64,000 nucleotides of DNA from Geoglobus ahangari (lineage in GTDB: Archaea; Halobacteriota; Archaeoglobi; Archaeoglobales; Archaeoglobaceae). Of this stretch, positions 37,051 through 63,759 are shown piece by piece. Numbering within the stretch: the stretch's first letter is position 1; each line of letters opens with the position of its first letter. Position numbers and translations under genes: made by a program. The stretch is from NCBI RefSeq assembly GCF_001006045.1, contig NZ_CP011267.1, positions 124,001-188,000 of the forward strand, read 5' to 3'. Under the pieces are notes generated by a model. It was given only the letters and a program-made list of their open reading frames with translations. It did not search any database and was not told where the DNA came from.

Positions 37051-37070
37051 AATCAACGGCCGCAAAAGGG

Positions 37071-37078
37071 TTATATTA
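37071..37078. promoter_or_regulatory. TATA box shared by hypF-hypE and hypA-hypB-hypC-hypD
   Basis: TTATATTA, whose reverse strand reads TAATATAA. It lies 24.5 nt from GTG 37050 (hypF) and 28.5 nt from ATG 37103 (hypA). Purine-rich BRE-like bases precede it on both strands (CAAAAGGG and AATAAGAG). A single element could drive both halves of the maturation set. Confidence 0.5.
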
Positions 37079-37102
37079 CTCTTATTCATCCATGTGCTGA
37101 AA

Positions 37103-46996: not shown

Positions 46997-47968
46997 ATGT
47001 GGGGAGAAAATTCCGAGTGGATTATCGTAATGCTGACGGCATTTGCGGTGGGAGCATCGATCCTGCCGCTCCAGATCAAAAAATTCGTCGAAAAAGGGGT
47101 AGTGGTACCTGACTACTACAAAAACCACATAAGGTACGTGCCAACCTCAGGTGGGCTCTCAGTTCTTCTGGCGTTCTACACTCCACTCTTTCTGGCCCTC
47201 ACCGGAATTTTTCCCCTGAACGTGTCACTTCCAGAGGTCACGGCGGCATTCATAATAGCACTTTACGGGCTATTTGGCCTCCTCGACGATCTGATAGACG
47301 TGGGGAGGATAAGCAAGGTCATCCTTCCACCCATGTTCGCAATCCCCATAGCTTTTGTCGCGGAAGAGGGATGGGCCCCTGTGGTTGGCAGCATTGACGG
47401 TGCGCTGCTGTTCGTGGTGGCACCCGTGTACGTGATGGTGGTCGCCAACCTGATAAACATGCACTCGGGGTTTAACGGAATGGCATCAGGTCTCACATCC
47501 CTCCTCCTCGGAACCCTGCTGGTAAAAACCCTGCTAACCGGCAAGGGCAGCATCCTCGTAACATCCGCCATGCTGGGTGCCCTCATAGCCTTCCTCTACT
47601 ACAACTGGTATCCCTCGAGAATATTCGACGGGAACATCGGGGCATTCACCATGGGATCCGTCGTTGGGCTGGGGATAGTGCTCGGCGGCTTTTACGTTTC
47701 TGGATTCATAATGCTCATTCCGCACACCGTGAACTTCCTGATGTACGTTTACTGGAGAATCATGCGGTTTTTAAGGCCCCATGACAAGCGCTACGAGCTC
47801 GTGAAGTTCGGCAGGGTCAGGAAAGACAAAACGATAGAGGCACCGAATCCCTACACGCTGAAATGGGTTCTCCCGTACTACTTCAGGGTGACGGAGAGGC
47901 AGATAGTTCTGGCGATGTACGCGCTGACCGGATTTTTCTGTGCTGTGAGCCTTTTCATACCCTATTGA
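46997..47968 (+). CDS. Polyprenyl-phosphate sugar-1-phosphate transferase (GT4/MraY family)
   Basis: Multi-pass membrane enzyme (323 aa, ~10 helices) that starts surface-glycan synthesis by moving a sugar-1-phosphate, typically GlcNAc-1-P, from a UDP-sugar to a dolichyl phosphate carrier (archaeal AglH-like). Conserved motifs: YVPTSGGLSVLL, the acidic FGLLDDLIDVGR (Mg2+ site), VVANLINMHSGFNGMASG and YPSRIFDGNIGAFTMGS. ATG 46997 follows GGGGAGAATCGG. It opens the surface locus and pairs logically with the UppP-like phosphatase upstream. Confidence 0.9.
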   Translation: MWGENSEWIIVMLTAFAVGASILPLQIKKFVEKGVVVPDYYKNHIRYVPTSGGLSVLLAFYTPLFLALTGIFPLNVSLPEVTAAFIIALYGLFGLLDDLIDVGRISKVILPPMFAIPIAFVAEEGWAPVVGSIDGALLFVVAPVYVMVVANLINMHSGFNGMASGLTSLLLGTLLVKTLLTGKGSILVTSAMLGALIAFLYYNWYPSRIFDGNIGAFTMGSVVGLGIVLGGFYVSGFIMLIPHTVNFLMYVYWRIMRFLRPHDKRYELVKFGRVRKDKTIEAPNPYTLKWVLPYYFRVTERQIVLAMYALTGFFCAVSLFIPY

Positions 47969-47978
47969 GGTGTTGTGA

Positions 47979-48236
47979 ATGGGAAACGCAAAAAAGCTTT
48001 TTGTAGCCCTGGTTTTGCTGGTCGTGCTGGCTTCTCTCGTGTCCGCTCACGGCAGTGGGCACGGATGCGGGAGTCAGGGGAAGGGGTGCACGGGAAAGAG
48101 CTGCGGTTGCAGCAGCTGCTGCAATACTGGCACGTGTGGGTGCAACAAGCAGTGCTACTCGATTCCGGAGTTCTCCGGAATCTCAGGAATTGCTGTGGCT
48201 ATCGGCGGGATGATAGCTCTCGTGAGAAAATCCTAA
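47979..48236 (+). CDS. Cysteine-rich PEF-CTERM surface mini-protein
   Basis: An 85-residue secreted protein. Signal peptide: KKLFVALVLLVVLASLVSA (cut near residue 23). The mature part is only about 38 residues and contains nine cysteines (30, 37, 42, 44, 47, 48, 53, 55, 59) with His, Gly and Ser, like a metallothionein or knotted peptide. The C terminus is SIPEFSGISGIAVAIGGM followed by IALVRKS: the PEF motif (63-65), a membrane helix and basic residues, i.e. a PEF-CTERM sorting signal. GAGGTG lies just before ATG 47979. The archaeosortase gene 3.5 kb downstream is the natural processing enzyme. Confidence 0.8.
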   Translation: MGNAKKLFVALVLLVVLASLVSAHGSGHGCGSQGKGCTGKSCGCSSCCNTGTCGCNKQCYSIPEFSGISGIAVAIGGMIALVRKS

Positions 48237-48694
48237 CTTCCACGCTCCTTCAACCAGAAATGAACCTCGTAAACAGCACCGTTGACTTCGGCCTCGATTC
48301 TGACCTTCGTCGGAAAGCTGATGTTCTGCGGAAGGGTTATGCTCTCATTGCTCTCCCACACATCCCCGCTTCTCAGCACAACCTCCCGGGTTTTGAGGAG
48401 CTGATCCCCAAGATAGATGCGGATGGTGTAGTGAGCTTCACCTCTCTCGTGACACTCAATCCCGTACCTGAAGGTGACGACCTCTCCCGGCTTGACGTAG
48501 TTGGAGTATGAATCAGGGTAGATGTAAAGGGCAGAGTAACTCTCCTGAGATGTCAGCCACAGGAGATAGCCGGCAACCACCAAGCCTACAATCATCGCGG
48601 CAATCGCAGACCTGAACATGATCCTGTCAAGCTCCTCGTCCATCTGCAGCTCTTCGCTCCCGGCAGTGTCGTCACTTGCCTTTTCAGAACTCAT
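48233..48694 (-). CDS. Single-pass membrane protein resembling the outer half of DUF1616
   Basis: A 153-residue protein: acidic cytosolic N terminus, one membrane helix (AAMIVGLVVAGYLLWLTS) and an external beta domain. The latter (YVKPGEVVTFRYGIECHERG, then EAHYTIRIYLGDQLL, LRSGDVWESNESITL, VYEVHFWLKERG) follows the pattern of the extracytoplasmic part of DUF1616 proteins that accompany archaeosortases. It is on the opposite strand, separated by the VanZ gene from a protein matching the membrane half. A promoter-like GGTTAAATTTTAAG lies about 30 nt upstream. The DUF1616 link is inferred from remembered motif order. Confidence 0.6.
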   Translation of the reverse strand: MSSEKASDDTAGSEELQMDEELDRIMFRSAIAAMIVGLVVAGYLLWLTSQESYSALYIYPDSYSNYVKPGEVVTFRYGIECHERGEAHYTIRIYLGDQLLKTREVVLRSGDVWESNESITLPQNISFPTKVRIEAEVNGAVYEVHFWLKERGS

Positions 48695-48788
48695 TGTTGT
48701 GTAAAACCCAGTGCAGTACTTAAAATTTAACCTGATCTGATGATGAGGCAGAAATTATTTATAGAGACAAGGAAAGAGGAGAGTTTCA

Positions 48789-49253
48789 ATGCAAATTACC
48801 AAATACATCTCCGTAGCAGTGGCCGTGTCCTATGCGGGACTGATATTCTACCTCTCATCTCTGCAGTCCCCTCCAAATCCGGTAACCCCCGAACTCCTGA
48901 TAAAGCTCCACAAGATGCTCGTGGAAATGGGGATTGAGTTCATCGCCTACCCCTTTTACATCTTCTACAGGCACCCGGACAAGCTCGCCCACATGCTCCT
49001 CTACATGGGGTTCGGATTCACGCTAAACCCCGCGATAAGATCCACAATCAACAAGCACCCCGAAGCACTCACGATAGTTTTCGGAACCCTTTACGGGGCG
49101 AGTGACGAGTTCCACCAGAGCTTCGTTCCGCACCGCTCTTCAACCGTCAGCGACCTCTTCGCGGACTTTGTCGGGCTCCTGATTTCCCAGATTGTAATCA
49201 TCGGGATGGTGAAGGTGATAAAACTCAAAAACAGACGCAAGGTGGTTCAATGA
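48789..49253 (+). CDS. VanZ-like membrane protein
   Basis: A 154-residue VanZ family membrane protein with about four helices. The hallmark is HPDKLAHMLLYMGFGFTLNP in helix 2 and YGASDEFHQSFVPHRSSTVS with DLFADFVGLLI near the end (conserved DE..Q...R..s..D...n). VanZ proteins occur in glycopeptide resistance and exopolysaccharide loci; their role is unclear, perhaps phosphatase-like toward lipid-linked sugars. GAGGAG lies upstream of ATG 48789, and AATTATTTATAG at about 48753-48764 is a good TATA box. Its stop overlaps the next gene (ATGA). Confidence 0.85.
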   Translation: MQITKYISVAVAVSYAGLIFYLSSLQSPPNPVTPELLIKLHKMLVEMGIEFIAYPFYIFYRHPDKLAHMLLYMGFGFTLNPAIRSTINKHPEALTIVFGTLYGASDEFHQSFVPHRSSTVSDLFADFVGLLISQIVIIGMVKVIKLKNRRKVVQ

Positions 49254-49585
49254 TCGATGTCTATCAGGTACTGCACTTCTTCAGGGTGGTCTTTGGCTTG
49301 ATTTTCCTCTTTTTTGTTCCTGGATACGCGGCAACTCTTGCGCTCTTCCCGAGGAAGGACGAGATATCTACGGTCGAGAGAATCGGATATGCTGGAGTTC
49401 TCAGCATCGTGGCCGACATACTGGTAACACTTTTCATAGATCTTGCCCTCGGGATACCCACCACCGGCATCAACATCTTCATTTCCCTTCTCGTGTTCAC
49501 GGGGATCATGCTGGCTATCTGGAGGGTGGAAGTGCTATATATGGAGAGGAAAGGCCGAAAAGATGGGGGTGCAAACGCTTCGTGA
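49250..49585 (+). CDS. DUF1616-like membrane protein (membrane half only)
   Basis: A 111-residue protein matching the N-terminal membrane half of DUF1616: FRVVFGLIFLFFVPGYAATL, then ALFPRKDEISTVERIGYAGVLSIV, two further hydrophobic stretches and a charged tail. The PGYAxTLALFPRK..I...ER pattern is the family signature. Full-length DUF1616 proteins add an extracellular domain after the helices, missing here; a protein resembling it is encoded on the other strand at 48233-48694. It overlaps VanZ upstream and the BshC-like gene downstream, so they are cotranscribed. Confidence 0.72.
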   Translation: MIDVYQVLHFFRVVFGLIFLFFVPGYAATLALFPRKDEISTVERIGYAGVLSIVADILVTLFIDLALGIPTTGINIFISLLVFTGIMLAIWRVEVLYMERKGRKDGGANAS

Positions 49586-51075
49586 ACTTGGCAAGCTTCT
49601 TGTCATCACAAAGTTTCAGAGGGCTCTCAAAAGAGCAAGTAAATAATCTGAAAGAGGTTGTCAGGACGTCTGCCGAACTCCACAGGATTGCGGGAGTGAA
49701 GGAGAAAAGGGTCAGCAGACTTGACCAGGACACGATTGTGATCGAATCCGGGCACCAGCCCAACTTCCTTCCATACAGCGGAGTTCTGAAAAAGGCTTTT
49801 CTGGCAGAGTGGATTGAAAGAACACTCAGCGAAAGTGGACTAAACACAGTTTCGATCTTTGGTATTGCGGATTACAACCTGTGCACGTCCAAATACCTGT
49901 TCCAGAACAGGCTTCCGGCGGTGAACAAAAACGGATTTGTTGGCTTCGGATTGAAAAAGCCCAGATCTCGAGAGATGTGGAAAAGGTTCAACTCCCTCCC
50001 GAAGCCAGAAGAAGAGGAGTGGGAATCCCTAACTCAAAAACTGAGAAGTCACTACCAGAACTCCGGAAAAGAATTTGCAGAGATGCTGATAGAGGAGATG
50101 TGGACGAGCTACCATCGGGGAGAGAGCCTCGCGGAGGTCAACACAATACTGTTCATCAGGCTCTGCAGGATGCTCGGCATTGATGTGCTATTTTTCAGGT
50201 ATTCTGATCTTCAAGAGAGGGGTGTCTTGAGGGACTCTTGGGAAAAGGTGTTGGAAGATTTCCGGCAGATAAATGCCGAGTACAACAAAACCGTCTCCCA
50301 GAATCCAGAGCTCGGTTTGAAAATAATAGATGAGAGAACTGCTCCATTCTGGTACCACTGCCCGTGTGGAGGAAAGGTTCAGACGTTTCACAATGGAGAA
50401 GTTTACGCGGGAGAGTGTCCCGTGTGCGGGGAAAGTTACGAGATAGAAGACCCGCTAAGCGAATTCCAGAACCTGAGCCCCAGAGCGGTGCCGAGGAACA
50501 TTATCTTTTCCGACGGTTTCGGTACATCAGTCTTCATTTCGGGCGCAGGTGGTGGGGTAAGGTACGGAGCGGTGGCCAATGCTGTTTCCAGAGCACTTGG
50601 CTTTGAAGCTCCCCGCACGATTGTGTGGAGGAGCAGGGACTACTACCTCGGGGCTGCGCACAGGAAGGTGCTGAGGGAAATCACGCGTCTCCTGAAAGTT
50701 GGAGAGAGCCTTAACAAAGAAAACGCAATAAGCGCTCTGAAGAGGTTGAGAAGTGAACTTGCACTGACAGGAGGGGAACCAAAGAGCCTCGGAAGCTACA
50801 GATACTCCGGAACCCTGCTGAAGATTGCTGCAAACGTCTTTTCCACAACCCCATCGATAATAGACATTCTGTCAGAATACGGGCCCGAACACGTCAGAAG
50901 AGCGTGGGGCCTTGCATTAAAAGATTCCGAAGTCAGAAAAACGAACACTTTTCCCGTGGAGGTTGAAAGGGACGTTGAATACGAGGAGGGTGCAAGAGAG
51001 CGTTATGAGGTGGTAAAGGTCCTTGAAAAAGAAAACCTCAGAGCCGATCCTCTGGGAATTCTCGGAGGGGTGTGA
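49582..51075 (+). CDS. BshC-like (cysteine-adding enzyme-like) protein with zinc ribbon
   Basis: A 497-residue protein resembling bacillithiol-synthesis enzyme BshC in motif order: IVIESGHQPNFLPYSGVLKK (like the GHQ..l..GP.y...K Rossmann start), VSIFGIADYNLCTSKYL (like the vFWiagEDHD region), and late LSPRAVPRNIIFSDG, VFISGAGGGVRYGAVANA, PRTIVWRSR. Between the halves is an inserted zinc ribbon, HCPCGGKVQTF with ECPVCGESYEI. BshC adds cysteine to glucosaminyl-malate; here the acceptor is unknown. It is directly followed by a PIG-L/BshB-like deacetylase, the partner type needed to expose an amine. Start GTG 49582 overlaps the previous stop. Family assignment is distant and from memory. Confidence 0.6.
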   Translation: MNLASFLSSQSFRGLSKEQVNNLKEVVRTSAELHRIAGVKEKRVSRLDQDTIVIESGHQPNFLPYSGVLKKAFLAEWIERTLSESGLNTVSIFGIADYNLCTSKYLFQNRLPAVNKNGFVGFGLKKPRSREMWKRFNSLPKPEEEEWESLTQKLRSHYQNSGKEFAEMLIEEMWTSYHRGESLAEVNTILFIRLCRMLGIDVLFFRYSDLQERGVLRDSWEKVLEDFRQINAEYNKTVSQNPELGLKIIDERTAPFWYHCPCGGKVQTFHNGEVYAGECPVCGESYEIEDPLSEFQNLSPRAVPRNIIFSDGFGTSVFISGAGGGVRYGAVANAVSRALGFEAPRTIVWRSRDYYLGAAHRKVLREITRLLKVGESLNKENAISALKRLRSELALTGGEPKSLGSYRYSGTLLKIAANVFSTTPSIIDILSEYGPEHVRRAWGLALKDSEVRKTNTFPVEVERDVEYEEGARERYEVVKVLEKENLRADPLGILGGV

Positions 51076-51705
51076 ATGTTCGAAAGGGTGCTAATTCTCA
51101 GTCCCCACACTGACGACGGAGAACTCGGATGCGGAGGAACGATTGCCAAATTTGTGGAGGACGGGAAAGAGGTTATATACGTTGCCCTTTCTGCCTGCGA
51201 GAAGAGCGTACCGGACGGCTTTCCGAAAGACATACTGAAAAAGGAAGTAAAGGCCGCTACCCAGATTCTTGGGATTAAAGAGAAGAACCTGCTGCTCTTC
51301 GACTTTGAGGTTAGGAAATTTCCTACATTCAGGCAGGAAATACTGGATACGCTAATCCAAGTTAAAAAGGACGTGAGTCCAGACATTGTATTCACGCCCT
51401 CCTCTTTCGACACCCATCAGGATCACAAGGTTGTCAGAGAAGAGACGCTGAGAGCTTTCAAGGACTGCACCATACTCGGATACGAGCAGCCATGGAACAA
51501 CATAACATTCGATACAATCGCATTTGTACCGCTCGATGAGAGACATGTTGACTTGAAGGTATCTGCACTCAAAATGTACAAATCTCAAGCTGAAAAAACA
51601 TATTTTGATGAAAAATTCATCAAAAGCTTGGCAAGAACGAGAGGTGTGCAGATACGAACAGAGTTCGCCGAAGTCTTTGAGGTGATACGTTGGATTATAC
51701 GATAA
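51076..51705 (+). CDS. PIG-L family N-deacetylase (LmbE/BshB-like)
   Basis: Zinc-dependent deacetylase of 209 residues that removes acetyl groups from N-acetylglucosamine conjugates. The metal site is LSPHTDDGELGCGGTIAKF at the N terminus (His-Pro-like PHTDDGE: His, Asp, Asp), and the second is TPSSFDTHQDHKVVREET with HxxH. The end ARTRGVQIRTEFAEVFEVI is typical. It follows the BshC-like gene with one codon spacing after GGGGTGTGA, and its end overlaps the archaeosortase start. Known relatives include BshB, MshB and GPI PIG-L. A substrate in this surface locus, either a glycan or a thiol precursor, is likely. Confidence 0.87.
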   Translation: MFERVLILSPHTDDGELGCGGTIAKFVEDGKEVIYVALSACEKSVPDGFPKDILKKEVKAATQILGIKEKNLLLFDFEVRKFPTFRQEILDTLIQVKKDVSPDIVFTPSSFDTHQDHKVVREETLRAFKDCTILGYEQPWNNITFDTIAFVPLDERHVDLKVSALKMYKSQAEKTYFDEKFIKSLARTRGVQIRTEFAEVFEVIRWIIR

Positions 51706-52511
51706 AGTCCAAATACGCCCCGCTGTTACTTGCATTCCTGCTAATTGCATCCTTTATAGAGCTTTCCTATGGTTCAAAAATCCTCGGACTCCTGTTTCTC
51801 GTTATTGCCGTCGGCACGCTGACGTTCCTTCCCAAGACCCCGCATGCCACGCTAAAAAGATCCATTCCCGGGACTGTGGCCGGACTGGCAATTGTCACAG
51901 CTGACATAGTATACAACACAATGAGTGGCTCTGAAATCCAAACAGTTGACTCAATAGTCATCCTCCTCGGGATTTCACTTGTAATTTACAAGTCTGGAAC
52001 GAAATACTCGGAAATGGGCAAGTTCGGGTTCTTTTTTTCTGCAATATTCCTTGCTCTGTTTTCAATGCTGTTCGTGTTCCCGATAAAAGCCGGGATCGAT
52101 CTGCCCTACTACTATGGCCACTACGCCGTAACCCTGCCAGTCGTTACCCTGCTGCAAAAAATGAACCTCAACATAGGAATGTACGGAGAGAGACTGATTT
52201 TCGTAAACGGCGTAGAAAATGCTTTGCTGAAAATAGATCTCGCGTGTTTTGGGTGGTATTCGCTGCTTCTCGTGATTAGTATGCTCGCAGCATACGGCCT
52301 AACGTTTAGCAACAAAACATGGGGGAGCTTGGCCAAGATTGCTCTTCTGATGTGCATAGCTGTGTACATAGCAAATCTGATCAGAGTGGCAATTCTGGTT
52401 ATGCTGACATACTACTACGGAGTGGAAACTATGCTTGTTGTTCACGCTCATCTGGGCTGGATCTTCTTTGCCCTGATAGTGTTCCCAACAGCTTACAAGT
52501 TTCTGAGGTAG
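51690..52511 (+). CDS. Archaeosortase (exosortase family), probably ArtC type
   Basis: Membrane transpeptidase-like enzyme, 273 residues with about eight helices, that cleaves C-terminal sorting signals of surface proteins. The catalytic triad candidates are Cys186 in LLKIDLACFGWYSLLLV, Arg232 in YIANLIRVAILVM and His252 or His254 in VVHAHLGWIFF, in the family order C...R...H. Two proteins with PEF-CTERM signals flank it (47979-48236 and 56288-57316), matching the partner known for the archaeosortase C group. The start is TTG 51690 with an excellent GAGGTGAT site; it overlaps the deacetylase by 16 bases. Subtype needs an HMM. Confidence 0.88.
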   Translation: MDYTIKSKYAPLLLAFLLIASFIELSYGSKILGLLFLVIAVGTLTFLPKTPHATLKRSIPGTVAGLAIVTADIVYNTMSGSEIQTVDSIVILLGISLVIYKSGTKYSEMGKFGFFFSAIFLALFSMLFVFPIKAGIDLPYYYGHYAVTLPVVTLLQKMNLNIGMYGERLIFVNGVENALLKIDLACFGWYSLLLVISMLAAYGLTFSNKTWGSLAKIALLMCIAVYIANLIRVAILVMLTYYYGVETMLVVHAHLGWIFFALIVFPTAYKFLR

Positions 52512-52517
52512 AAAGGT

Positions 52518-53300
52518 ATGCCGAGAGATTTTACTATGGACAAGTACAGAGAGCTGTGTGCCGCAGTAATGGACAGATACTCCCCTGTTACCGTAAAGGA
52601 CTTTCTGCTCGGCCGTAAAAAGTATTCAAAGGTTGCAATAATGAGGCATGACGTCGACAGGAATCCAGAAAAAGCACTCGAAATGGCAAAACTTGAAGCG
52701 GAGATGGGAATCTCGTCAACATACTACTTCAGGGTAAAACCCAAAGTTTTCATACCGGAAATTATCACAGAGATCTCAAAACTTGGACACGAGGTGGGCT
52801 ACCACTACGAAGTTGTGGACAAAGCAAAGGGAGACCTGCAAAAGGCAATTGAGATATTCAAAAAAGAGCTGAACGAGTTCAGGGAGATTGTGGAAGTAAA
52901 GACAGTGTGCATGCACGGAAACCCGCTCACTCCATGGGATAACAGAGATCTTTGGAAAGAATACGATTTCGAGAAGTTCAACATAATCGGTGAAGCCTAC
53001 CTCTCAATAAAACACGAGGACATCCGGTATTTCTCAGACACCGGAAGATGCTGGTCTGGGGAGTACAGCATTAAAGACACCATAAATTCAAACAGCAAAA
53101 AAGAAGAAAAACTACGCATTAAAACAACAGACGACGTTATCAGGATTATCAGGGAGGGAGTTTTCGAGCAGATCTACATAGTAACCCACCCAAACAGGTG
53201 GTCAACGACTTATTTTGAGTGGTTGGTCGAGTTGTTCTCGCAAAATGTTAAAAATTTAGGAAAAAAGGTAATAAGGTATGGAAGAGCTCTTCAAAATTGA
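52518..53300 (+). CDS. Polysaccharide deacetylase-like protein
   Basis: A 260-residue NodB-like (carbohydrate esterase 4) fold protein. VAIMRHDVDRNPEKALEMAK provides the HDVD metal/acid motif, GHEVGYHYEVVDKAKGDL the second metal site, and VKTVCMHGNPLTPWDN a further loop with His. The end YIVTHPNRWSTTYFEW supplies a late His. Related proteins in archaeal surface loci are thought to deacetylate glycan or act on lipid-linked sugars; the substrate is not known. It follows archaeosortase by 6 bases, and its 3' end overlaps the PHP gene by 23 bases. Confidence 0.82.
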   Translation: MPRDFTMDKYRELCAAVMDRYSPVTVKDFLLGRKKYSKVAIMRHDVDRNPEKALEMAKLEAEMGISSTYYFRVKPKVFIPEIITEISKLGHEVGYHYEVVDKAKGDLQKAIEIFKKELNEFREIVEVKTVCMHGNPLTPWDNRDLWKEYDFEKFNIIGEAYLSIKHEDIRYFSDTGRCWSGEYSIKDTINSNSKKEEKLRIKTTDDVIRIIREGVFEQIYIVTHPNRWSTTYFEWLVELFSQNVKNLGKKVIRYGRALQN

Positions 53301-53982
53301 CTTTCACGTTCACACAATATACTCTGGCGATTCGATCATCACACCAAAACTACTGGTAAAGGCATCTCTGAAAAGCGGACTCAACGGAGTCGCAATTACA
53401 GACCACAATACAACGAAGGGTATTCAAAAGGTGAAGGATTTCCTGAAAAATGCAGACCTCACGATCATCGATGGAATTGAAATTCAGACCAGAGTAGGCG
53501 ACATAATAGGTCTCTTCATAAATGAGGAGCTGTCGTCAATAGACCCGTACGAGGTATGTGACAAAATACACGAGCAGGGTGGTCTCGTCATTTTGCCACA
53601 TCCATTTCGGAAAAGAGGATTGCAGAATCTTTCCAATGAGCTGCTAAAAAAAATTGACCTGATCGAGGTCCTTAACGCCAGAAGCTCCAAAGAATCAAAC
53701 CAAAGAGCGTTGATTTTTAGCAGAAGTTCGAACATCATGCCAATCGCAGGCAGCGATGCACACACACCTTTCGAGGTGGGCAGAGCCCATGTAAAATTTA
53801 CCATGCAAATAACATCAGAAAACGAAATAAAATCCCTCCTCAGAACGGGTGAATTCCAGATAGGGGGCTCAGAGACACCACAGCACCTCCAGATCCTCAG
53901 CAGGGGCATATCGGCATACAAAAACAAAGGACTGACGGGATTGATTCGCGCAGGTACCAAAAAAATTTTGGGGAGAGATTGA
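53278..53982 (+). CDS. PHP domain phosphoesterase in the surface locus
   Basis: A 234-residue metal-dependent hydrolase. PHP motifs: FKIDFHVHTIYSGDS, AITDHNTTKG, IIDGIEIQT, VILPHPFRK and AGSDAHTPFEVGR. The last ~40 residues (GLTGLIRAGTKKILGR) are an amphipathic basic tail. Similar proteins sit in exopolysaccharide loci and may act as tyrosine or phosphosugar phosphatases (CpsB-type are PHP enzymes). Distinct from the PHP protein at 11.2-11.8 kb. It overlaps the previous gene and is followed directly by the ATP-grasp gene. Confidence 0.85.
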   Translation: MEELFKIDFHVHTIYSGDSIITPKLLVKASLKSGLNGVAITDHNTTKGIQKVKDFLKNADLTIIDGIEIQTRVGDIIGLFINEELSSIDPYEVCDKIHEQGGLVILPHPFRKRGLQNLSNELLKKIDLIEVLNARSSKESNQRALIFSRSSNIMPIAGSDAHTPFEVGRAHVKFTMQITSENEIKSLLRTGEFQIGGSETPQHLQILSRGISAYKNKGLTGLIRAGTKKILGRD

Positions 53983-53984
53983 CC

Positions 53985-55136
53985 ATGAGTGCTGTAATAA
54001 CCAGTGCATCCAGCGTCAAATCTTTAGCAATTGCCAGAGGACTGGGGAAAATGGGTGTCTCAGTTATTGCAGCAGACCACAAAAGAATCTCACCAACGTT
54101 TTTCTCGAAGTACGTGAATTCAAGATTTCTCCACCCCAACCCAGAAAGAGACCCGCAAGGCTTCATAAAATCACTCTATACCCATCTATCGAAACTCCGA
54201 CCGGATGTGCTGCTACCGGTGAACAGCACTGAGGTTATGTTAATCGCCAAGCAGAAGAAGTTGCTGGAAAAGGTTACAAGAATTCCTTTTGAGGAATATA
54301 ACAGACTCTTAATGCTTCACGACAAGCGCAGATTCTACGAGCTAGCCGAGAATCTCGGCCTCCCGATTCCAAAAACCTACAGGGCCACCAGCATGGAGGA
54401 TGTGAGAAAAATCGCAGAAAGAGTGGAGTACCCTGTAGTGATAAAACTTACCGACGCCACGAGTAGCAAGGGAATCACATATGCGAAAAATAGGGAGGAG
54501 CTACTGCAGAACTACAAAAAAACCGTAAAAGATTATGGTTTACAACCCGAAAACTATCCAGTAATTCAGGAGTATATCCCGGGTGATGGGTATGGCGTGT
54601 CCCTTCTTACCAACAATGGAGATCTTCGAGCGATATTCACCCATAAGAGATTGCGGGAATACCCTGCTACAGGTGGCCCGAGTTCGCTGAGACTCAGCAC
54701 ACGACATAGAAAAATGGAGAAAATAGCAAGGGAGCTCTTAAAAGAGGTGGAGTGGTACGGTGTAGCGATGGTTGAATTCAAGCTTGACGAAAGGTTCAAC
54801 AAACCGGTGATAATAGAGGTAAACCCGAGATTCTGGGGTTCAATAAACCACGCCATAGTTTCCGGGGTCAATTTCCCCTATTTGCTCTACAAGATGGTCA
54901 CAGAAGGAGATGTGGAAAAGGTCACCGACTACAAAACCGGAATAGTTACTGCCTATTTCATGAACGATATGAGGGCGGTAATATCCGCACTTATGAGCGG
55001 AAAAATTAGAAAAGTGCTTAAAATCACCAAAATAGATGCCTTCGATGAGTTTTCAAGCGAAGATCCGTTACCAGCATTCATATTCCCACTATCTGAGATC
55101 GAAGAGGCTGTCAGAAATATCTTCAATACGGAGTGA
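53985..55136 (+). CDS. ATP-grasp ligase (carbamoyl-phosphate-synthase-like fold)
   Basis: A 383-residue ATP-dependent carboxylate-amine ligase. The N-terminal Rossmann region (VITSASSVKSLAIARGLGKM) is followed by the ATP-grasp core: YELAENLGLPIPKTYRATS, EYPVVIKLTDATSSKGITYA, VIQEYIPGDGYGVSLL, VAMVEFKLDE and the metal-binding PVIIEVNPRFWGSINHA. Such enzymes form amide or peptide-like bonds; in a locus with FemAB-like genes, joining an amino acid to a glycan or lipid precursor is a reasonable guess. I use ATG 53985 (GGGGAGA upstream) rather than TTG 53979. Confidence 0.87.
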   Translation: MSAVITSASSVKSLAIARGLGKMGVSVIAADHKRISPTFFSKYVNSRFLHPNPERDPQGFIKSLYTHLSKLRPDVLLPVNSTEVMLIAKQKKLLEKVTRIPFEEYNRLLMLHDKRRFYELAENLGLPIPKTYRATSMEDVRKIAERVEYPVVIKLTDATSSKGITYAKNREELLQNYKKTVKDYGLQPENYPVIQEYIPGDGYGVSLLTNNGDLRAIFTHKRLREYPATGGPSSLRLSTRHRKMEKIARELLKEVEWYGVAMVEFKLDERFNKPVIIEVNPRFWGSINHAIVSGVNFPYLLYKMVTEGDVEKVTDYKTGIVTAYFMNDMRAVISALMSGKIRKVLKITKIDAFDEFSSEDPLPAFIFPLSEIEEAVRNIFNTE

Positions 55137-55142
55137 TTCCAA

Positions 55143-56189
55143 ATGAAAATCGTTATAGGTGTTGCTCATCCAAAGCATGCCCACATATTCAAGAATCCAG
55201 CCAGCAAATGGAGGGAAGAGGGACACGAGATATACGTAATAGCGATTAACAAGGGCGAAACGGGCTATCTGCTAAAAAAATACTTTAACAGTAGTGAATA
55301 TACAATCATCGGAGAAAGCAAAGATAAATTGCACAGCAAAATCATCCACACTTCCGCACTCGAATTAAAATCGCTGAAGCTTTTGAAAAGGATTGAACCA
55401 AACATTGCGATCGGTAGAGCAATTCCACACCTGATACATGCAAGTGCTGCGTGTGGAACTAAATACATAATCTTCGAAGACACAGAGATGGCAAAACTGC
55501 TGCACAGGATTACCGTTCCGTTCTGCAATGCGATCGTGACTCCGAAAAATTTCATTGGAGATTTTGGAAAAAAACACATCAGGTTTGACGGTTTTTTTGA
55601 GCTTGCATATCTCCACCCAGAATATTTCAAACCAGACAGAAGCGTTTTAGATCTGCTGAACATTGCCCCAGACGAAAGATACATAGTAATGAGAACGATC
55701 TCATGGGACGCCTACCATGATGCAGGGCTTAGAGGCCTCTCAGACTACAGAGATGCGATAAAAAGACTCGAAAAATATGCCAGAGTCATTGTAATTAGCG
55801 AAAATAACGACAGGTTTCTGGAAAAATACAGAGTCAGCATACCACCTGAGAAAATCCATTCGCTTCTATATTACGCAGACCTGTATTTGGGAGAAGGGGG
55901 TACAATGGCAGTCGAATCTGCAATTCTTGGTACCCCATCAATCCACGTAGAGGCAACAGCATCTGGACTGCCAACCGGTCTAACATCAGGGAACTTTATA
56001 GAACTGAAAAATAAATACGGGCTGCTTGAATTCTACTCAGAACAGGAGAGTGCAGTTGATAAAGCCATAAACTTCCTTGAGGACAAAAAAATAAAGAAGC
56101 GGTGGAACAAAAAGAGGAACAGACTCTTGAAAGAGAAGATAGACGTTTCAAAATGGATTTACGAATTCGTTACCGAATTCCCATTATGA
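55143..56189 (+). CDS. DUF354 glycosyltransferase-like protein
   Basis: A 348-residue protein of the DUF354 family, which has a GT-B-like two-Rossmann shape. It begins MKIVIGVAHPKHAHIFKNP, then PNIAIGRAIPHLIHASAACG, TKYIIFEDTEMAKL, GFFELAYLHPEYFKPD and, near the C terminus, the donor-type ADLYLGEGGTMAVESAILGT. The reaction is not established; the shape suggests a nucleotide-sugar or epimerase-related role. GGAGTGAT lies before ATG 55143. Codon use is A/T-rich compared with the first 50 kb. Confidence 0.85.
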   Translation: MKIVIGVAHPKHAHIFKNPASKWREEGHEIYVIAINKGETGYLLKKYFNSSEYTIIGESKDKLHSKIIHTSALELKSLKLLKRIEPNIAIGRAIPHLIHASAACGTKYIIFEDTEMAKLLHRITVPFCNAIVTPKNFIGDFGKKHIRFDGFFELAYLHPEYFKPDRSVLDLLNIAPDERYIVMRTISWDAYHDAGLRGLSDYRDAIKRLEKYARVIVISENNDRFLEKYRVSIPPEKIHSLLYYADLYLGEGGTMAVESAILGTPSIHVEATASGLPTGLTSGNFIELKNKYGLLEFYSEQESAVDKAINFLEDKKIKKRWNKKRNRLLKEKIDVSKWIYEFVTEFPL

Positions 56190-56287
56190 TTATGGTCATA
56201 ACAACTGAAATCATTTCTGACTAAAATAAATTTAACACTACGAAACTTTTTTATAGAGGGGAGATGTAAATGGGTTGGGGATTTGAG

Positions 56288-57316
56288 ATGAAGAAAACAA
56301 TTAAATGGATAACAATTGCCCTTGCAACAATGATGATGAGCATAGGTGCAGTGAATGCACTTAAGTTCACTATCGACGGAGATCTGACAGACTGGGGGAT
56401 TACACCAACAGAAATCGAAACCGGCCTTAACTGTAACCCCAACGCAACAGTATGTACAGGAGATGTCTGGAAACCAGAATATGTCGGAATGGCTTCCCCA
56501 CGATGGGTTGTGGAGGATGATGTCGACCCGCAATATGCCATTACTAATCCAGAGAGCTACGATTTTGGACCGCATTTCGCAGGATATGGTGCGAATTTCT
56601 GGATATATAAGGAACCAAAAGTAAACGGGCGAATTCAGCCTTCGCCACACAATGGGCTGCTTTATGGCACATGGGGTGACGATTTTGACGTAGAAGCAAT
56701 ATACGTTGACGAAGATGCAGACTACCTTTATGTCGCCGCTGTGGTTTCAGCACCGCCAGATGGGTACCAGAACCTTGGGTGGCCAAGGGGAGCTGCAGGA
56801 GATCTTGCTTTGGATGTGAGGACTGACATTCCTGGAGGATTTGGCGGGTACGATTTTGGAGTTAGACTTGGCACATGGGATGGAGACGGTGGCGCGGTGC
56901 AGTTTGGGATATACAGAACCGACGAAGATCGAGACTGGCATGAAGCTGTGGACTATGATTCAAACTCACCAGTAGTTGTTGATACCGCCAATGCTACCTT
57001 AGTAGGAAACGCAATTGGAGCATACATCAACGCCTCAGAAAAATGGGGAATATGGGAATACGTCAGAAACCTCAAAGACTCGACATATGACAAGAAACCA
57101 ATATACATAGTAGAACTAGCGATACCAAAAACGAAGATAGGATTAACCAATGGAACATTCATTGTAGATAGATACTTCAAAGTCCACCTCTCAGAGGTCG
57201 GATGTGGTAACGACGCTGGCAATGTCTCAATACCAGAGTTCGTTACGCTGATTGCGCCAATAGGTCTGATAATTGGAGTAGTTTCAGCAATTCATTACAG
57301 GAGAGGGGCAAAATAA
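56288..57316 (+). CDS. PEF-CTERM surface protein with CBM9-like domain
   Basis: A 342-residue exported protein. Signal peptide KKTIKWITIALATMMMSIGA, then FTIDGDLTDWGITPTEIETG, a start typical of carbohydrate-binding DOMON/CBM9-like domains (IDGxxxDW), and later ADYLYVAAVVSAP and WDGDGGAVQFGIYRTDEDRD. The tail NVSIPEFVTLIAPIGLIIGV, then VSAIHYRRGAK, is a PEF-CTERM signal: PEF, membrane helix and Arg pair. ATG 56288 follows TTTTTATAG; ATG 56270 (MGWGFEM) with GGGGAGATG is the alternative. It is probably processed by the archaeosortase 4 kb upstream and may bind the locus's glycan. Confidence 0.82.
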   Translation: MKKTIKWITIALATMMMSIGAVNALKFTIDGDLTDWGITPTEIETGLNCNPNATVCTGDVWKPEYVGMASPRWVVEDDVDPQYAITNPESYDFGPHFAGYGANFWIYKEPKVNGRIQPSPHNGLLYGTWGDDFDVEAIYVDEDADYLYVAAVVSAPPDGYQNLGWPRGAAGDLALDVRTDIPGGFGGYDFGVRLGTWDGDGGAVQFGIYRTDEDRDWHEAVDYDSNSPVVVDTANATLVGNAIGAYINASEKWGIWEYVRNLKDSTYDKKPIYIVELAIPKTKIGLTNGTFIVDRYFKVHLSEVGCGNDAGNVSIPEFVTLIAPIGLIIGVVSAIHYRRGAK

Positions 57317-57381: not shown

Positions 57382-58701
57382 TTGTTGTCAAGAGTGATAC
57401 TGGAGAATGTCAAAAGAGAGTCAATCATAGGTATAAGATACATGCTATCCACTCACCCTCAAAACTACTCATTAAAAAACAACATAGTGGAGATCAGATC
57501 TCGACAACAAAAAACGATAAAATTTCAGAACAACAACATGCCAATTGAGAAAATAATTGAAAGAATTATAAAAATAAAAAATCATAAAAAGCAGGTAGAA
57601 TGGATTCTCGAGAATTTTGTAAAGAGCGACCGTAACAGCATCAGTATTGAAATCGATATACCAGAGATGGCAACGAAAATAATAACAAACTACGACAAAA
57701 TATTCCAGAAAATTGATAAAAAGGAAGAAATGGCTGAAACACCTGTTGCAGATGTTCTGGCAGCTGCATTCAGAGAGATACTGCTGGAGTGCGGGGTTCC
57801 TGAGAAAAATCCATGGCCATCCGAAAAAAGGTTTGCACTATGCTTGACACACGACGTTGATGAACTGAAAAAAACATACCAATACCTCACTAGAACTATC
57901 CATTACATAAAACAACGGAAATTAAGACGTGCTGTAAGAAATTTTATTTCTGCTGTTCCGGACAAATTACTGGACAAAAATCCATATTGGACCTTCGATC
58001 AGATAGAGGAGATAGAGAAGCAGTATAATGTCAGATCCACATTTTTCTTTTTAAAAGAGACGGCAAAGGTGCGCCCATTTGCTCCAGAAACATGGAAACA
58101 CTACGGCAGGAGATACAATTGGAATGAACCAAAAATAAAAGAAAAAATACAGCAGCTGAACAGGAACGGGTGGGAGATTGGACTCCATGGGTCTTATGAA
58201 TCATACAAGAGTCTTAAACTGCTGTCAACCGAGAAAAAAGAGCTTGAGCAGGTCACCCAAAACAAAGTTGTTGGGATTAGACAGCACAATCTCAATTTGC
58301 TAATCCCAGACACCTGGGAACTACAGAGAGATGCTGGCTTCGTGTACGACATGAGCCTGGGATTCAAAGGTGGTAGATACATCGGATTCAGGGGAGGAGT
58401 TTGTTTTCCATTTTACCCTGTCAAGGGCTTGTTGGAGATACCTACAACAATTATGGATATATCCATAAATCAAGGGTACAGGTTGAGAGACTTCGAGAAA
58501 ATTCTGGAAACGGTAAGTTACTTCGGTGGTGTCTGCAACATCCTCTGGCACCATACAGTATTTTCAGAGGAATATCATAGTTGGGACAGGATCTATGAAA
58601 AAATAATAGAAAAAGCTATTGAGATGGATGCATGGATATGCAATGGTAGGGATCTCACAAAGTGGTGGAACGAGAACAGAACCCGAGTGACAGGTGGTTA
58701 A
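57382..58701 (+). CDS. Polysaccharide deacetylase family protein
   Basis: A 439-residue protein with a ~130-residue N-terminal region of unknown nature and a NodB-like domain from about residue 150: FALCLTHDVDELKKTYQYL (metal-binding HDVD), NVRSTFFFLKETA, GWEIGLHGSYES (second metal His), VVGIRQHNLNLLIP and CNILWHHTVFSEEYHSW. This larger architecture occurs in archaeal and bacterial exopolysaccharide loci. The substrate is unknown. The start is TTG 57382 or 57385 after GAGGTG. It begins after a T-rich break with its own promoter-like AAATATATTTTATC. Confidence 0.82.
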   Translation: MLSRVILENVKRESIIGIRYMLSTHPQNYSLKNNIVEIRSRQQKTIKFQNNNMPIEKIIERIIKIKNHKKQVEWILENFVKSDRNSISIEIDIPEMATKIITNYDKIFQKIDKKEEMAETPVADVLAAAFREILLECGVPEKNPWPSEKRFALCLTHDVDELKKTYQYLTRTIHYIKQRKLRRAVRNFISAVPDKLLDKNPYWTFDQIEEIEKQYNVRSTFFFLKETAKVRPFAPETWKHYGRRYNWNEPKIKEKIQQLNRNGWEIGLHGSYESYKSLKLLSTEKKELEQVTQNKVVGIRQHNLNLLIPDTWELQRDAGFVYDMSLGFKGGRYIGFRGGVCFPFYPVKGLLEIPTTIMDISINQGYRLRDFEKILETVSYFGGVCNILWHHTVFSEEYHSWDRIYEKIIEKAIEMDAWICNGRDLTKWWNENRTRVTGG

Positions 58702-58703
58702 CG

Positions 58704-59702
58704 GTGAAGCTTAGAGCTGAAATTGCAGACGAGAAGAAAATATGGAATGAAATCGTTGAAGAGGCAAATGCAACAATATTCCACCGGTGGGAGTGGTTAA
58801 AAACCTTTGAAACGTTCTCTGGATACACCTTCGAGCCATATATACTCTACAACAAAAAAACACCCGCAGGAGTGATGCCCATATTTACCATAAACAAGTT
58901 CAAGTTGAAATTTAGCTTTTCACCACCCCCTCATTCCGCAATTCCATTTCTAGGTTTTGCATTTTCAAAATACAGCTCGCTGAAACAAAATAAAAAAGAA
59001 GGACTCATACAGGAAAGCTGTAAGCTAATAAACAAACTGAGCGAAACGTCAACATCATTTTCAATGATACTGCATCCAGAGATACCTGATGTCAGACCAT
59101 TCCTGTGGGAAGGATATGAGGTCAAGCCGACATACCATTATGTAATAGACCTGTCACCGGGAGAAAAAACGCTACTGAATAATTTCAAAGGAAGTGCCAG
59201 AAAAAGCATAAAAAAGGGTATGAGCATGTTTGAAATTAAGGAAGGAGGACTAAAAGAGCTGAAAACCATTTTAGAACTGATGAGAAAAAGATACATCGAT
59301 CAAAAAAGAAAAGTAAAAGTCCCATTCGAATATATATACGAAGTATACAATAAATTTGAAGACAATTTCCAGATACTCACTGCAGAATTCGAAGGGGAGA
59401 CAATAGGCGGGGTCATTAACATACTGGATGGAAGCAAGGTGTACAGTTGGCTAGGAAATACAAAATCAAATATTTCCGGAGTTTATCCAAACGATTTGCT
59501 TATGTGGGAGTCGATAAAAAGAGCATGTAGTGATGGATACAAATTGTTCTATGAAATTGGTGCCAATACACCTCACTTAATAACCTACAAATCCCGTTTC
59601 AACCCGGAACTGGTGATCTGTTTTTCAGTTTCTAAAGAAAAGTTTCTCGGTAAAGTTGCCAGAAAAACATATACGAGCGTATCAAAGTATGTCGGGCTCT
59701 AA
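58704..59702 (+). CDS. FemAB-like acyl/aminoacyltransferase, copy 1
   Basis: A 332-residue GNAT-fold protein of the FemAB/BioF2-like group. It opens with LRAEIADEKKIWNEIVEEAN and the marker ATIFHRWEWLKTFE, which recurs in two other genes here ([24 protein letters not shown]). The first GNAT half includes FSFSPPPHSAIPFLGF; the second includes FKGSARKSIKKG, FEGETIGGVINILDG and YPNDLLMWESIKRACSDGY. FemAB proteins add amino acids from tRNA to peptidoglycan; here the acceptor may be glycan. GTG 58704 has GGTGGT upstream and starts two bases after the deacetylase stop. Confidence 0.8.
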   Translation: MKLRAEIADEKKIWNEIVEEANATIFHRWEWLKTFETFSGYTFEPYILYNKKTPAGVMPIFTINKFKLKFSFSPPPHSAIPFLGFAFSKYSSLKQNKKEGLIQESCKLINKLSETSTSFSMILHPEIPDVRPFLWEGYEVKPTYHYVIDLSPGEKTLLNNFKGSARKSIKKGMSMFEIKEGGLKELKTILELMRKRYIDQKRKVKVPFEYIYEVYNKFEDNFQILTAEFEGETIGGVINILDGSKVYSWLGNTKSNISGVYPNDLLMWESIKRACSDGYKLFYEIGANTPHLITYKSRFNPELVICFSVSKEKFLGKVARKTYTSVSKYVGL

Positions 59703-60672
59703 CTTACAGATAACCATAGCAGATAAAAACACGTGGAAAAAAACCGTGGATGCAATAAACAAAGCCACGGTGTTCCACACATGGGAATGGTTAAGTATTC
59801 TTGAAAAATATGCTCCCAAAAAATTCGGAAAACGTCCAAAATTAATTCCATTAATACTACAGTACGACGATCACAGCACAATTGCCGCGATACCCATTTT
59901 CATCTATGAACTGCCAAAAAGAACCATAGTATATTCGCCACCTCCAAAGACTCACACACTATACCTTGGACCGTTGATTAATTGGAGAAGTGAGATGAAG
60001 AAAATCAAAATAACGCTCAGTATGCTGGAATATATATCTGAAAACCTAGATCCAGCATATGTGCGTATAGTTTCACCACCAAGGAGCACAGATTACCGGC
60101 CATACCAGTGGAGGAATTACAGAATAAACATGTTTTCAACATATTTTATAGAACTGCATGGAATGGAGACCTGGGCAAATCTACCAAAAAAACTTAGGAA
60201 AAACATAGCGTCTGCTGAGAAGAAGTACGAAATCTGCACTGGTGGTAAAAAAGAGCTGCAAGAGATTATTGCAAGACTCAAGGAGAAAAAACACTTGAAT
60301 GGCCCAGAAGAGATGATCCATGATGTAACTAGGGAGATGGAGTGCAAACTAATAGTCGCCAAAAAAGACGGAGAACTTATAAGCGGCACTCTTTTTCTGA
60401 AATACAACAATGTCATCACTGCATGGATAGGAAATGCTGCTCCTAAAACGAGAGCCCCGTATGTAAACGAGCTTGTCATGTGGAAAGGTATGGAGTGGGG
60501 CATCGAAAACGATTGTCAGGTGTTTGAAATCCTGGGTGCCCACGAGGAGGCCCTGTTCCCATTTAAAGCAAAATTTAATCCTGAGTTTACCCCATATATA
60601 AACGCTGAATTTTGCACAATACCTGCGAGATTCATAAAAATTTTAAAAAAATTAAAAATGTTAAATTTTTAA
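59689..60672 (+). CDS. FemAB-like acyl/aminoacyltransferase, copy 2
   Basis: A 327-residue paralogue of the preceding gene. Shared pieces: ATVFHTWEWLSILE, YELPKRTIVYSPPPKTH, LPKKLRKNIASAEKKYE, KKDGELISGTLFLKYNNV and APYVNELVMWKGMEWGIEND. Divergence is considerable, so the copies probably act on different acceptors or residues. ATG 59689 lies inside the end of copy 1 (14-base overlap), showing coupling. The C terminus is strongly basic (RFIKILKKLKMLNF) and might associate with the membrane. Confidence 0.8.
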   Translation: MSGSNLQITIADKNTWKKTVDAINKATVFHTWEWLSILEKYAPKKFGKRPKLIPLILQYDDHSTIAAIPIFIYELPKRTIVYSPPPKTHTLYLGPLINWRSEMKKIKITLSMLEYISENLDPAYVRIVSPPRSTDYRPYQWRNYRINMFSTYFIELHGMETWANLPKKLRKNIASAEKKYEICTGGKKELQEIIARLKEKKHLNGPEEMIHDVTREMECKLIVAKKDGELISGTLFLKYNNVITAWIGNAAPKTRAPYVNELVMWKGMEWGIENDCQVFEILGAHEEALFPFKAKFNPEFTPYINAEFCTIPARFIKILKKLKMLNF

Positions 60673-60684
60673 GGTGAAATTTTA

Positions 60685-61650
60685 ATGCGGATCTGTTGGT
60701 TAGGCGAATCCGGAGAACTAGGAGCCGGAATATACAGCAAAATGGTATTAAATGCACTTTCAAAACACTACGAAGTCGAAACTGTCAAAATAAAACCTGG
60801 TGCATTGGTTAGCCACGCACACGTTGCCTCTCTCACAAATAGACTGGACGAAAAATATGATGTTGTAATTAGAGGGTTTCACGACACCATACCCCTGATA
60901 GGTAAAATGAATAGAGCAAAAAACATAACAATACTGCAGTTCGCACTTTACAGAAGTGGTGTGAAAAAAATAGCATACACGTTTGATAAACTTTTTCTAA
61001 AAAATATAAAAAACGTTGATGTTGTTGTAACGGTATCAAAATACATGAAGAACTTGCTTGAAGCAAATGGAAACAAAAATACCAGAATAGCATACAACGC
61101 GTTTGAGATAGACAAGTTTAAAATTAGCAAACAAAAGCTTTCAGAGTTCAAACAGAAATATAACCTAACTGGAAAACCAGTAATATATATCGGGAACTGC
61201 AGAAAAGAAAAAGGTGTGCTGGAAGTCTACGAAGAACTGAAAGATCTGGATGCCCACCTGGTAAGCAGTGGCAAAAAAATGGTTGACGTGCCATCCAAAA
61301 ATTTCGAGTTGAGTTACGACGAGCATATAATTCTCCTGAAATCATCAGACATTGTGATAAATATGTCAAAAATTCCAGAAGCGTGGAACAGGACAGCACA
61401 TGAGGGTATGTTGTGCAGAAAACCAGTAATAGGGTCTGGAAGCGGAGGCATGGAAGAACTGCTAAACGGCGGCAAGCAAATCATCTGTAAAAATTTCGGG
61501 AAATTGAGGCCAATTGTGGAGCAGTTATTGGAAGACAGGAAAACTAGAAAAAAATTAGGAAATACCGGATATAAATTCGCAAGTAAATTTACAAGTAAAA
61601 AATTCGAAAAAGAGTGGGTGACCATAATTGAGGAACTGTCAAAAAGGTGA
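60685..61650 (+). CDS. Glycosyltransferase family 4-type (GT-B) enzyme
   Basis: Retaining glycosyltransferase of 321 residues that extends the surface glycan. MRICWLGESGELGAGIYSKM forms the N-terminal Rossmann part. VVTVSKYMKNLLEANG is the family Ser-Lys-Tyr helix, followed by IAYNAFEIDKFK. The donor domain has PVIYIGNCRKEKG and the signature around SKIPEAWNRTAHEGMLCRKP with VIGSGSGGMEELL (EGM.C.KPVIGS..GG..E). Sugar specificity cannot be deduced. GGTGA lies before ATG 60685. Confidence 0.88.
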   Translation: MRICWLGESGELGAGIYSKMVLNALSKHYEVETVKIKPGALVSHAHVASLTNRLDEKYDVVIRGFHDTIPLIGKMNRAKNITILQFALYRSGVKKIAYTFDKLFLKNIKNVDVVVTVSKYMKNLLEANGNKNTRIAYNAFEIDKFKISKQKLSEFKQKYNLTGKPVIYIGNCRKEKGVLEVYEELKDLDAHLVSSGKKMVDVPSKNFELSYDEHIILLKSSDIVINMSKIPEAWNRTAHEGMLCRKPVIGSGSGGMEELLNGGKQIICKNFGKLRPIVEQLLEDRKTRKKLGNTGYKFASKFTSKKFEKEWVTIIEELSKR

Positions 61651-61657
61651 TGCTGCT

Positions 61658-63244
61658 GTGTCAAAACCAAAGGTATTCGTAATAGGTCTCGATGGTGCAA
61701 CCTGGGATGTGATCCTCCCCCTGGTCGAGAGAGGTGAATTGCCTACCTTCAAAAAACTTATTGAGAATGGAGCGTGGGGTGTGCTGAAAAGCACAATCCC
61801 TCCGGTTACAATCCCGGCCTGGCCAGCGTTTGTAACCGGAAAAAACCCGGGAAAATTTGGAGTTTTTGATTTTTTTGTTGTAGATGAGAATGGCGAATCG
61901 AGAATAGTCACTTCCAAGGACATAAAGTCCAAGAAACTATGGGATTATCTGGGATTTTTTGGTCTGAAGTCTATAGTGGTTAATCTGCCCAACTCCTATC
62001 CAGTGGAAAAAATAAATGGGGTTATGGTCTCCGGCATGCTCACACCGGAGGGGAAGCCCTTCGCATATCCTCCTGAAGTGGAGGAGATTGCCAAGGAGAT
62101 CGGGTATGTGATTGAGGTAGATTCGGATGTGATAAAGAAGTACAGGGGGAAATACGAGCTAATAAACGAACTACTGAGGATAATTGACAAAAGATTTAGA
62201 TTTGCAGATTATTTATTGAAGAGGTACAAATGCGACTTTTTCTTCATATTGGTACGCGAAACCGACATAATTCAGCACTCGGAGTTCAAGAACTTAAATA
62301 AAATAGCCACTGTGTACAAATACATTGATTCAAAGATCTCGGAGTTCATAGATCGATATTTTGATGACAATACAATATTTATACTGATGTCTGATCATGG
62401 ATTCTCTCCATTAAATAAACACATATACATTAATAATTTATTGTATAAAAATAAATTATTAAAAATAAATAATCAAAAAATATCAAACAATAAGAACACT
62501 GATATCATCTATAGAGTCCTGCTTAAGTTAGGAATTACGAAAAAGGATCTTGGTAGAATCTTCAAAAAATTCAAACTTGACAAAATTGTAGTCAAAATCC
62601 TACCATTATCACTGCTAGGTAGTATACCCACATCGGTATACGATGTCGACATGAAAGAAAGTGTAGCATATTTTGGAGGCAAATTTGGTATGGAGTCTAC
62701 TTACATACTAATTAACAAACAAAAATTTTCTACAAAGGAGGAATATGAAACTACGAGAACAAAAATAATAGAGATTCTAAAAAAAGTAAAAGATCCCAAA
62801 ACCGGTAAACCAGTAATTACAAGAGTGTTTAAAGGAGAAGAGTTGTTTAATGGAGAATTCTCATCTTCAGCCCCAGACTTGGTCATATTATTGGAAAAGG
62901 GATACAGCATGAACGCATCCATCACAAAAGATGGCACAATCATTGAAGAAATTCCCCTTCCTTCTGGAACACATGATACAGATGGGATTGTATTATTCTA
63001 TGGGAGAGACATAAAGCCAACAAAACTAGATGATGCCACAATATATGATCTCATGCCAACAATCCTACATATTTTCGGGCTACCCATACCAAACGATGTG
63101 GACGGAAAGATTCTCAGAAGTGTCTTCCGCGAAAATAGCGAAATAGCCACGCGAGATCCAAGCATAATCGACGTCGCTCAGTATCGAGAAATGGAAGAAA
63201 AAGATAAAATTAGGAGAAAAATACAGAAACTAAAGATCATATGA
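61658..63244 (+). CDS. Alkaline phosphatase superfamily (nucleotide pyrophosphatase/phosphodiesterase-like) protein
   Basis: A 528-residue metal-dependent hydrolase or transferase. [19 protein letters not shown] gives the first metal site; [20 protein letters not shown] holds the Thr nucleophile region; [20 protein letters not shown] and [12 protein letters not shown] (DHGF) give further metal ligands; [16 protein letters not shown] the last His. Related archaeal proteins sit in exopolysaccharide loci and may cleave or transfer phosphate-linked groups. Start GTG 61658 follows GGTGATG. A strongly A+T-rich patch around 62400-62510 encodes a Lys/Asn-rich insertion ([17 protein letters not shown]). 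Confidence 0.85.
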
Positions 63245-63759
63245 GTGATGTCATAATGAATAGGAAATTAAGAGATCTGTATTTGTGGATAACTCACCTA
63301 ATAGCAATGCAAATACCTTTTGGAAGAGTTAAAAGACTGTTCTATAGCCTTAGAGGCACCAGTATTGGCAAAAATGTAGACATATCCACTGGAGTGTTTA
63401 TAGAAGAAAGTTTTCCAGAACTGGTCACAATAGAGGATTATGTGGACATAGGTCCAAACGTCATAATAGTTACACATGACTCGAGTCCGCGGTGCATAGA
63501 CCCCAACATACCAATAGTAAAAAAGAAGGTCGTTATAAAAAAACGGGCATACATCGGTGCTGGAGCTATAATACTGCCCGGCGTAACAATTGGCGAAGGT
63601 GCGATTGTGGCTGCGGGAGCTGTTGTGACTAAAGACGTACCACCTAGAAAGATAGTGGCTGGCATACCAGCGAAAATAATTGGAGATGTTGAAGACTACT
63701 TAGAAAAATTTAAGCCACGAGAGGGGATCACTGTTGGAAATAAGGGCAGAATTGAATAA
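63241..63759 (+). CDS. Hexapeptide-repeat acyltransferase
   Basis: Left-handed beta-helix acyltransferase of 172 residues (WbbJ/maltose-acetyltransferase type), probably O- or N-acetylating a sugar. Repeats are visible in [38 protein letters not shown] (His is the likely catalytic base) and [19 protein letters not shown], with the closing [23 protein letters not shown] 63241 overlaps the previous stop (ATGA). Its 3' end overlaps the third FemAB-like gene by 26 bases. Confidence 0.88.

Follow-up and report, generated by a model that had tools for sequence, protein, structure and literature searches.

Geoglobus ahangari is an iron-breathing archaeon of hot vents, and one stretch of its genome raises the question of how proteins might be sorted to its surface. 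Does an archaeosortase-like gene, lying among glycan genes and between genes for two proteins with PEF-containing tails, mark a sorting system, and if so, which proteins would it serve and to what would they be joined? The genome of strain 234T is one contig of 1,770,093 bases, of which we analyzed positions 124001-188000 (64,000 nucleotides, hereafter the window); the word "sortase" is absent from the main text of the genome paper (PMC4600277). We consider the locus very probably an archaeosortase C (ArtC)/PEF-CTERM surface-protein sorting system inside a surface-glycan gene cluster, a reading that draws on the family of the enzyme, conservation of its active site, the anatomy of the tails, co-occurrence, and synteny, all evident at the level of sequence. 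The pairing of ArtC with PEF tails is already known, and is stated in PMC5244752 and PMC9723798. The conserved gene cluster around ArtC appears to be little described so far, and the literature found held no biochemistry of ArtC.

ArtC and the gene cluster around it

A sequence-only reading had recognized an exosortase/archaeosortase from the order of its Cys, Arg, and His residues, and had pointed to the archaeosortase C group from the PEF tails nearby. This placement stands: the protein scores above, not below, the archaeosortase models, both that of its own group (Table 1) and that of the general family (TIGR04178, 48.2 bits, cut-off 23), and Cys186, Arg232, His252, and His254 are invariant in an alignment of nine Archaeoglobales orthologues. 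Archaeoglobales ArtC proteins reach 108-157 bits against TIGR03762; the best scorers from beyond the order lie at 239-446 bits, and judged by these scores the Archaeoglobales proteins are a divergent branch. Matches in a profile scan of genome contigs with the ArtC alignment were confined to Archaeoglobi. Provided that its TTG start is correct, the ArtC frame overlaps the PIG-L gene by 16 bases. The second archaeosortase-family gene of the genome encodes ArtA (TIGR04125, 235.6 bits, cut-off 75) and adjoins archaetidylserine decarboxylase- and synthase-like genes.

Table 1. Features of the glycan locus, with positions in the window and the evidence for each
Feature	Position	Strand	Evidence
Glycosyltransferase family 4 (GT4)/MraY-like polyprenyl-phosphate sugar-phosphate transferase, start of conserved locus	46997..47968	+	PF00953 80.5 bits; syntenic in Archaeoglobales ArtC loci
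85-aa secreted Cys-rich protein, tail SIPEF-hydrophobic stretch-RKS	47979..48236	+	Tail anatomy; tail profile A3
DUF1616 protein, C-terminal (extracellular) half	48233..48694	-	PF07760 positions 149-284, E 3.9e-6, 26.7 bits, below 31.6-bit cut-off; conserved in ArtC loci
VanZ-like membrane protein	48789..49253	+	NF037970 70 bits, cut-off 20
DUF1616 protein, N-terminal membrane half	49250..49585	+	PF07760 positions 21-116, 46 bits, cut-off 31.6
WbqC-like protein	49582..51075	+	PF08889 21.4 bits, cut-off 21.3; syntenic
PIG-L/GlcNAc de-N-acetylase family, directly upstream of artC	51076..51705	+	PF02585 73 bits; 68-77% identity across Archaeoglobales ArtC loci
Archaeosortase C (ArtC)	51690..52511	+	TIGR03762 136.4 bits, cut-off 100; alignment
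deac260, conserved, probably polysaccharide-deacetylase-like	52518..53300	+	TIGR02764 only 13.9 bits, far below cut-off 237
PHP-domain phosphoesterase	53278..53982	+	NF038032 86.7 bits, cut-off 80; PF02811, PF13263
ATP-grasp enzyme	53979..55136	+	PF02655 62.6 bits, cut-off 23.2
DUF354 glycosyltransferase-like protein	55143..56189	+	PF04007 89.7 bits, cut-off 22; syntenic
348-aa secreted protein, unnamed family (DGxLxDWG motif), tail SIPEF-hydrophobic stretch-YRRGAK	56270..57316	+	PEF conserved in orthologues; occurrence
Polysaccharide deacetylase-like protein	57382..58701	+	NF053580 85 bits, below cut-off 440
FemAB/GNAT-like transferase 1	58662..59702	+	PF13480 43.4 bits, cut-off 22; TIGR03019 30.7 bits, below cut-off 260
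FemAB/GNAT-like transferase 2	59656..60672	+	PF13480 32.6 bits, cut-off 22
Group 1 glycosyltransferase	60685..61650	+	PF00534 42 bits, cut-off 26.4
Type I phosphodiesterase/AlkP-superfamily protein	61628..63244	+	PF01663 129 bits
Hexapeptide-repeat (LbH) acyltransferase, LbH172 family	63241..63759	+	67% identity to L065:16799-17266, which has Hexapep PF00132

The neighboring glycan gene families support the earlier claim that the enzyme sits in a glycan locus. This locus goes on beyond the window (L196, genome 187734-190162) with a third FemAB-like protein (PF13480, PF02388); L196 also encodes a 526-aa protein with no Pfam match. An XrtA-specific identity for the FemAB-like proteins was rejected, their scores lying far below the equivalog cut-off. 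By eye, genes at 33773-39326 resemble those of NiFe-hydrogenase maturation (HypE, HypF, HypA, HypB, and HypD).

Across Archaeoglobales the same order recurs with only small changes: GT4/MraY-like, PEF protein, DUF1616 C-terminal half (on the opposite strand), VanZ, DUF1616 N-terminal half, WbqC-like, PIG-L, ArtC, 348-aa family, DUF354, deacetylase, FemAB. The two DUF1616 pieces cover different parts of PF07760. In Archaeoglobales, DUF1616 is divided between two oppositely oriented genes; elsewhere it stands whole beside ArtC, usually as one long protein outside the order and, in L141, as a VanZ-DUF1616 fusion. Among 20 sampled ArtC loci outside the order, DUF1616 lies within ~7 kb of the enzyme in 16, in genomes that hold one to six DUF1616 matches; deac260 homologues are present at 12 of these loci, DUF354 at 11, and FemAB at nine. 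None of the ArtC-locus families was found at ten ArtA loci, where the single PEF match is not a tail.

Proposed mechanism and candidate acceptor

How the tails would be cleaved, and to what acceptor the proteins would be transferred, we infer from the family. PEF-tailed proteins would be exported via the N-terminal signal and retained by the C-terminal hydrophobic helix; Cys186 of ArtC, aided by Arg232 and His252/His254, would attack near PEF, the helix and basic end would be removed, and the new C-terminus would pass to a membrane acceptor that bears an amine. For ArtA, an amine lipid has been put forward in this role (PMC7157517), and by analogy with that work, resolution of a Cys acyl-enzyme by such a lipid would be the likeliest scheme.

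A refinement of this explanation, and one that does not exclude it, would have ArtC link PEF-tailed proteins to a glycolipid that the surrounding cluster produces. PIG-L would unmask the amine of a lipid-linked amino sugar from the GT4/MraY-like enzyme, this free amine would resolve the acyl-enzyme in a GPI-like manner, and VanZ/DUF1616 would act as a conserved partner. In essence, such a route would be an archaeal counterpart to GPI anchoring, separate from the aminolipid route of ArtA in the same cell, and we put it forward tentatively, as rather unlikely. It is PIG-L adjoining ArtC that suggests an amino-sugar lipid acceptor: PIG-L is present at all ten Archaeoglobales ArtC loci examined, mostly directly upstream of ArtC, and no other protein of the locus is as well conserved. 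The aminolipid-type genes beside ArtA in this genome, and the amine lipid proposed for ArtA, point in the same direction. Yet the PIG-L gene could just serve glycan synthesis, and outside the order it is found at only seven of 20 ArtC loci, never adjacent to the enzyme. Because it is missing from most of those loci, we give an amino-sugar lipid acceptor a low probability; PIG-L as a universal ArtC partner is rejected on the same count. With the transfer acceptor still only a candidate, the description of the system as "complete" in the sequence-only reading was an overstatement.

PEF tails and their co-occurrence with ArtC

Both the 85-aa and the 348-aa proteins begin with a hydrophobic, signal-like stretch and end in IPEF, a hydrophobic stretch, and basic residues, so that each tail runs from PEF motif through hydrophobic helix to basic C-terminal end. 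This anatomy, together with conservation of PEF in relatives of the 348-aa protein, bears out the proposal that two PEF-CTERM substrates flank the enzyme. The 348-aa protein is a locus-encoded candidate substrate of ArtC and its apparent conserved partner in Archaeoglobales: PEF is invariant in eight aligned orthologues at only 29-37% identity to it, and the homologues thus retain the signature. The "CBM9-like" label once given to this protein found no backing, since Pfam searches with it and eight relatives at E 10 returned no match save one irrelevant hit, and a PDB sequence search with the protein gave no relevant match. Two AlphaFold2 models of its fold, with pLDDT of 37 and 36, were unusable.

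The 85-aa protein carries nine Cys between signal and tail, and its tail matches profile A3 at E 1.4e-9, the profile having included that tail itself. Its local alignment with a 240-aa Cys-rich PEF-tailed protein of L161 (G018) scores 82, where the maximum of 500 shuffles was 59, and the two have an HGCG..GKG start in common. The second PEF slot is filled by different proteins in other loci, one of them VWA-like by eye.

TIGRFAM models, which had been suggested as a check, served for the enzyme and failed for the tails: the PEF-CTERM model TIGR03024 (cut-off 23 bits) matched neither window tail, and scored three other tails of the genome at 19.7, 18.7, and 11.5 bits, all below cut-off. It was dropped as a tail detector, being too insensitive for G. 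ahangari. A search for the [I/V/M]PEF codon pattern—which would miss tails with another residue preceding PEF—gave 43 genome matches versus 17 for a reversed control, and when all were read, only six open frames showed PEF, hydrophobic stretch, and basic end in full. The genome therefore encodes at least six proteins with a predicted PEF tail: two in the window, and elsewhere two NosD-like beta-helix and two beta-propeller-like proteins. Two of the six lie no more than ~10 kb from artC, an outcome that random placement would give with P ~5e-4. As the other four are encoded elsewhere, ArtC would have local substrates but would not be dedicated to the locus, and to call the system "dedicated" went too far. 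Against the system as read here, a tail profile lacking the window tails and their orthologues gave these tails weak scores (E ~0.3), although they ranked second and third of 784 frames.

Of 57 Archaeoglobales genomes, 11 have an ArtC above cut-off. Members of the 348-aa family are present in these 11 and in G012 and G018, and this set of 13 is also the one with PEF tails (E<=1e-4). Family and tails are thus present in 11/11 ArtC genomes versus 2/46 others (Fisher P 4e-10, uncorrected for kinship), and in 9/9 versus 0/33 among high-quality genomes; since some of these genomes contributed to the tail profile, its positives are partly circular, and the information lies in the 44 negative genomes. 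Genera g1, g2, g3, g6, and g11 are each divided between presence and absence, and because ArtC and tails vary within these genera, the association does not reflect one inherited event. Five complete genomes checked that lack ArtC (G001, G014, G020, and, from the same genus as the window genome, G025 and G026) have a single archaeosortase-family gene each, and tails at E<=1e-4 were not found in them; G002, G023, G038, and G000 have two such genes each. Two genomes are exceptions. In G018, whose assembly is 76% complete, PEF tails accompany only an ArtA-sized archaeosortase as far as detected, and in G012 they occur without ArtC above cut-off.

Bacterial-type EpsH exosortases (TIGR02602, cut-off 105.55 bits), each with an EpsI-like neighbor, are encoded in G012 (L074:5621-6445, 135 bits) and G013 (L077:4510-5322, 140 bits), and that of G013 adjoins PEF-tailed proteins. 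Enzyme replacement is possible in these two genomes.

Could the window tails instead be ordinary uncleaved C-terminal membrane anchors, with ArtC acting on other substrates or on none here? Any hydrophobic helix with a basic end can serve as an anchor, and TIGR03024 misses both tails, but the invariance of PEF among such diverged 348-aa orthologues, and tails that come and go with ArtC within genera, make this very improbable. Weaker still, and hardly credible, is processing of the PEF tails by ArtA, with another role for ArtC: ArtA is encoded in the genome and G018 would fit, but the five complete one-archaeosortase genomes are without tails at the same threshold, ArtA is known for PGF-CTERM, and ArtC-locus families are absent from the ArtA loci.

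Relation to known sorting systems

The preferred reading, an ArtC/PEF-CTERM sorting system, can be set beside three precedents. Archaeosortase C/PEF-CTERM (TIGR03762/TIGR03024) was reportedly described by Haft et al. in 2012; the G. ahangari system resembles it in an enzyme above cut-off, conserved active-site residues, a tripartite PEF tail, and several substrates per genome, but departs from it in window tails that score below the TIGR03024 model and in the divergence of the Archaeoglobales enzyme. With Archaeosortase A/PGF-CTERM and its PssA and PssD (Haloferax, Methanosarcina), ArtC shares a superfamily and a proposed mechanism, and in G. ahangari, too, ArtA adjoins genes resembling those for archaetidylserine synthase and decarboxylase; the tail of the ArtC system, however, is PEF rather than PGF, and its neighborhood is different. 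Bacterial EpsH/PEP-CTERM, finally, places its sorting enzyme within exopolysaccharide loci (Haft et al. 2006, PMC1569441), much as the G. ahangari enzyme sits in a glycan locus with deacetylases and glycosyltransferases, where FemAB-like proteins weakly match an XrtA-associated model. Unlike EpsH, ArtC belongs to another enzyme subfamily, has PEF in place of PEP, and works with no outer membrane.

Not only does the ArtC locus tie archaeal protein sorting to glycan loci, as seen for bacterial exosortases, but a single locus brings together the enzyme, a conserved candidate substrate, DUF1616 as a consistent partner, and genes that might make the acceptor. Such a locus, gained or lost along with the tails within genera, opens the question of the acceptor to testing.
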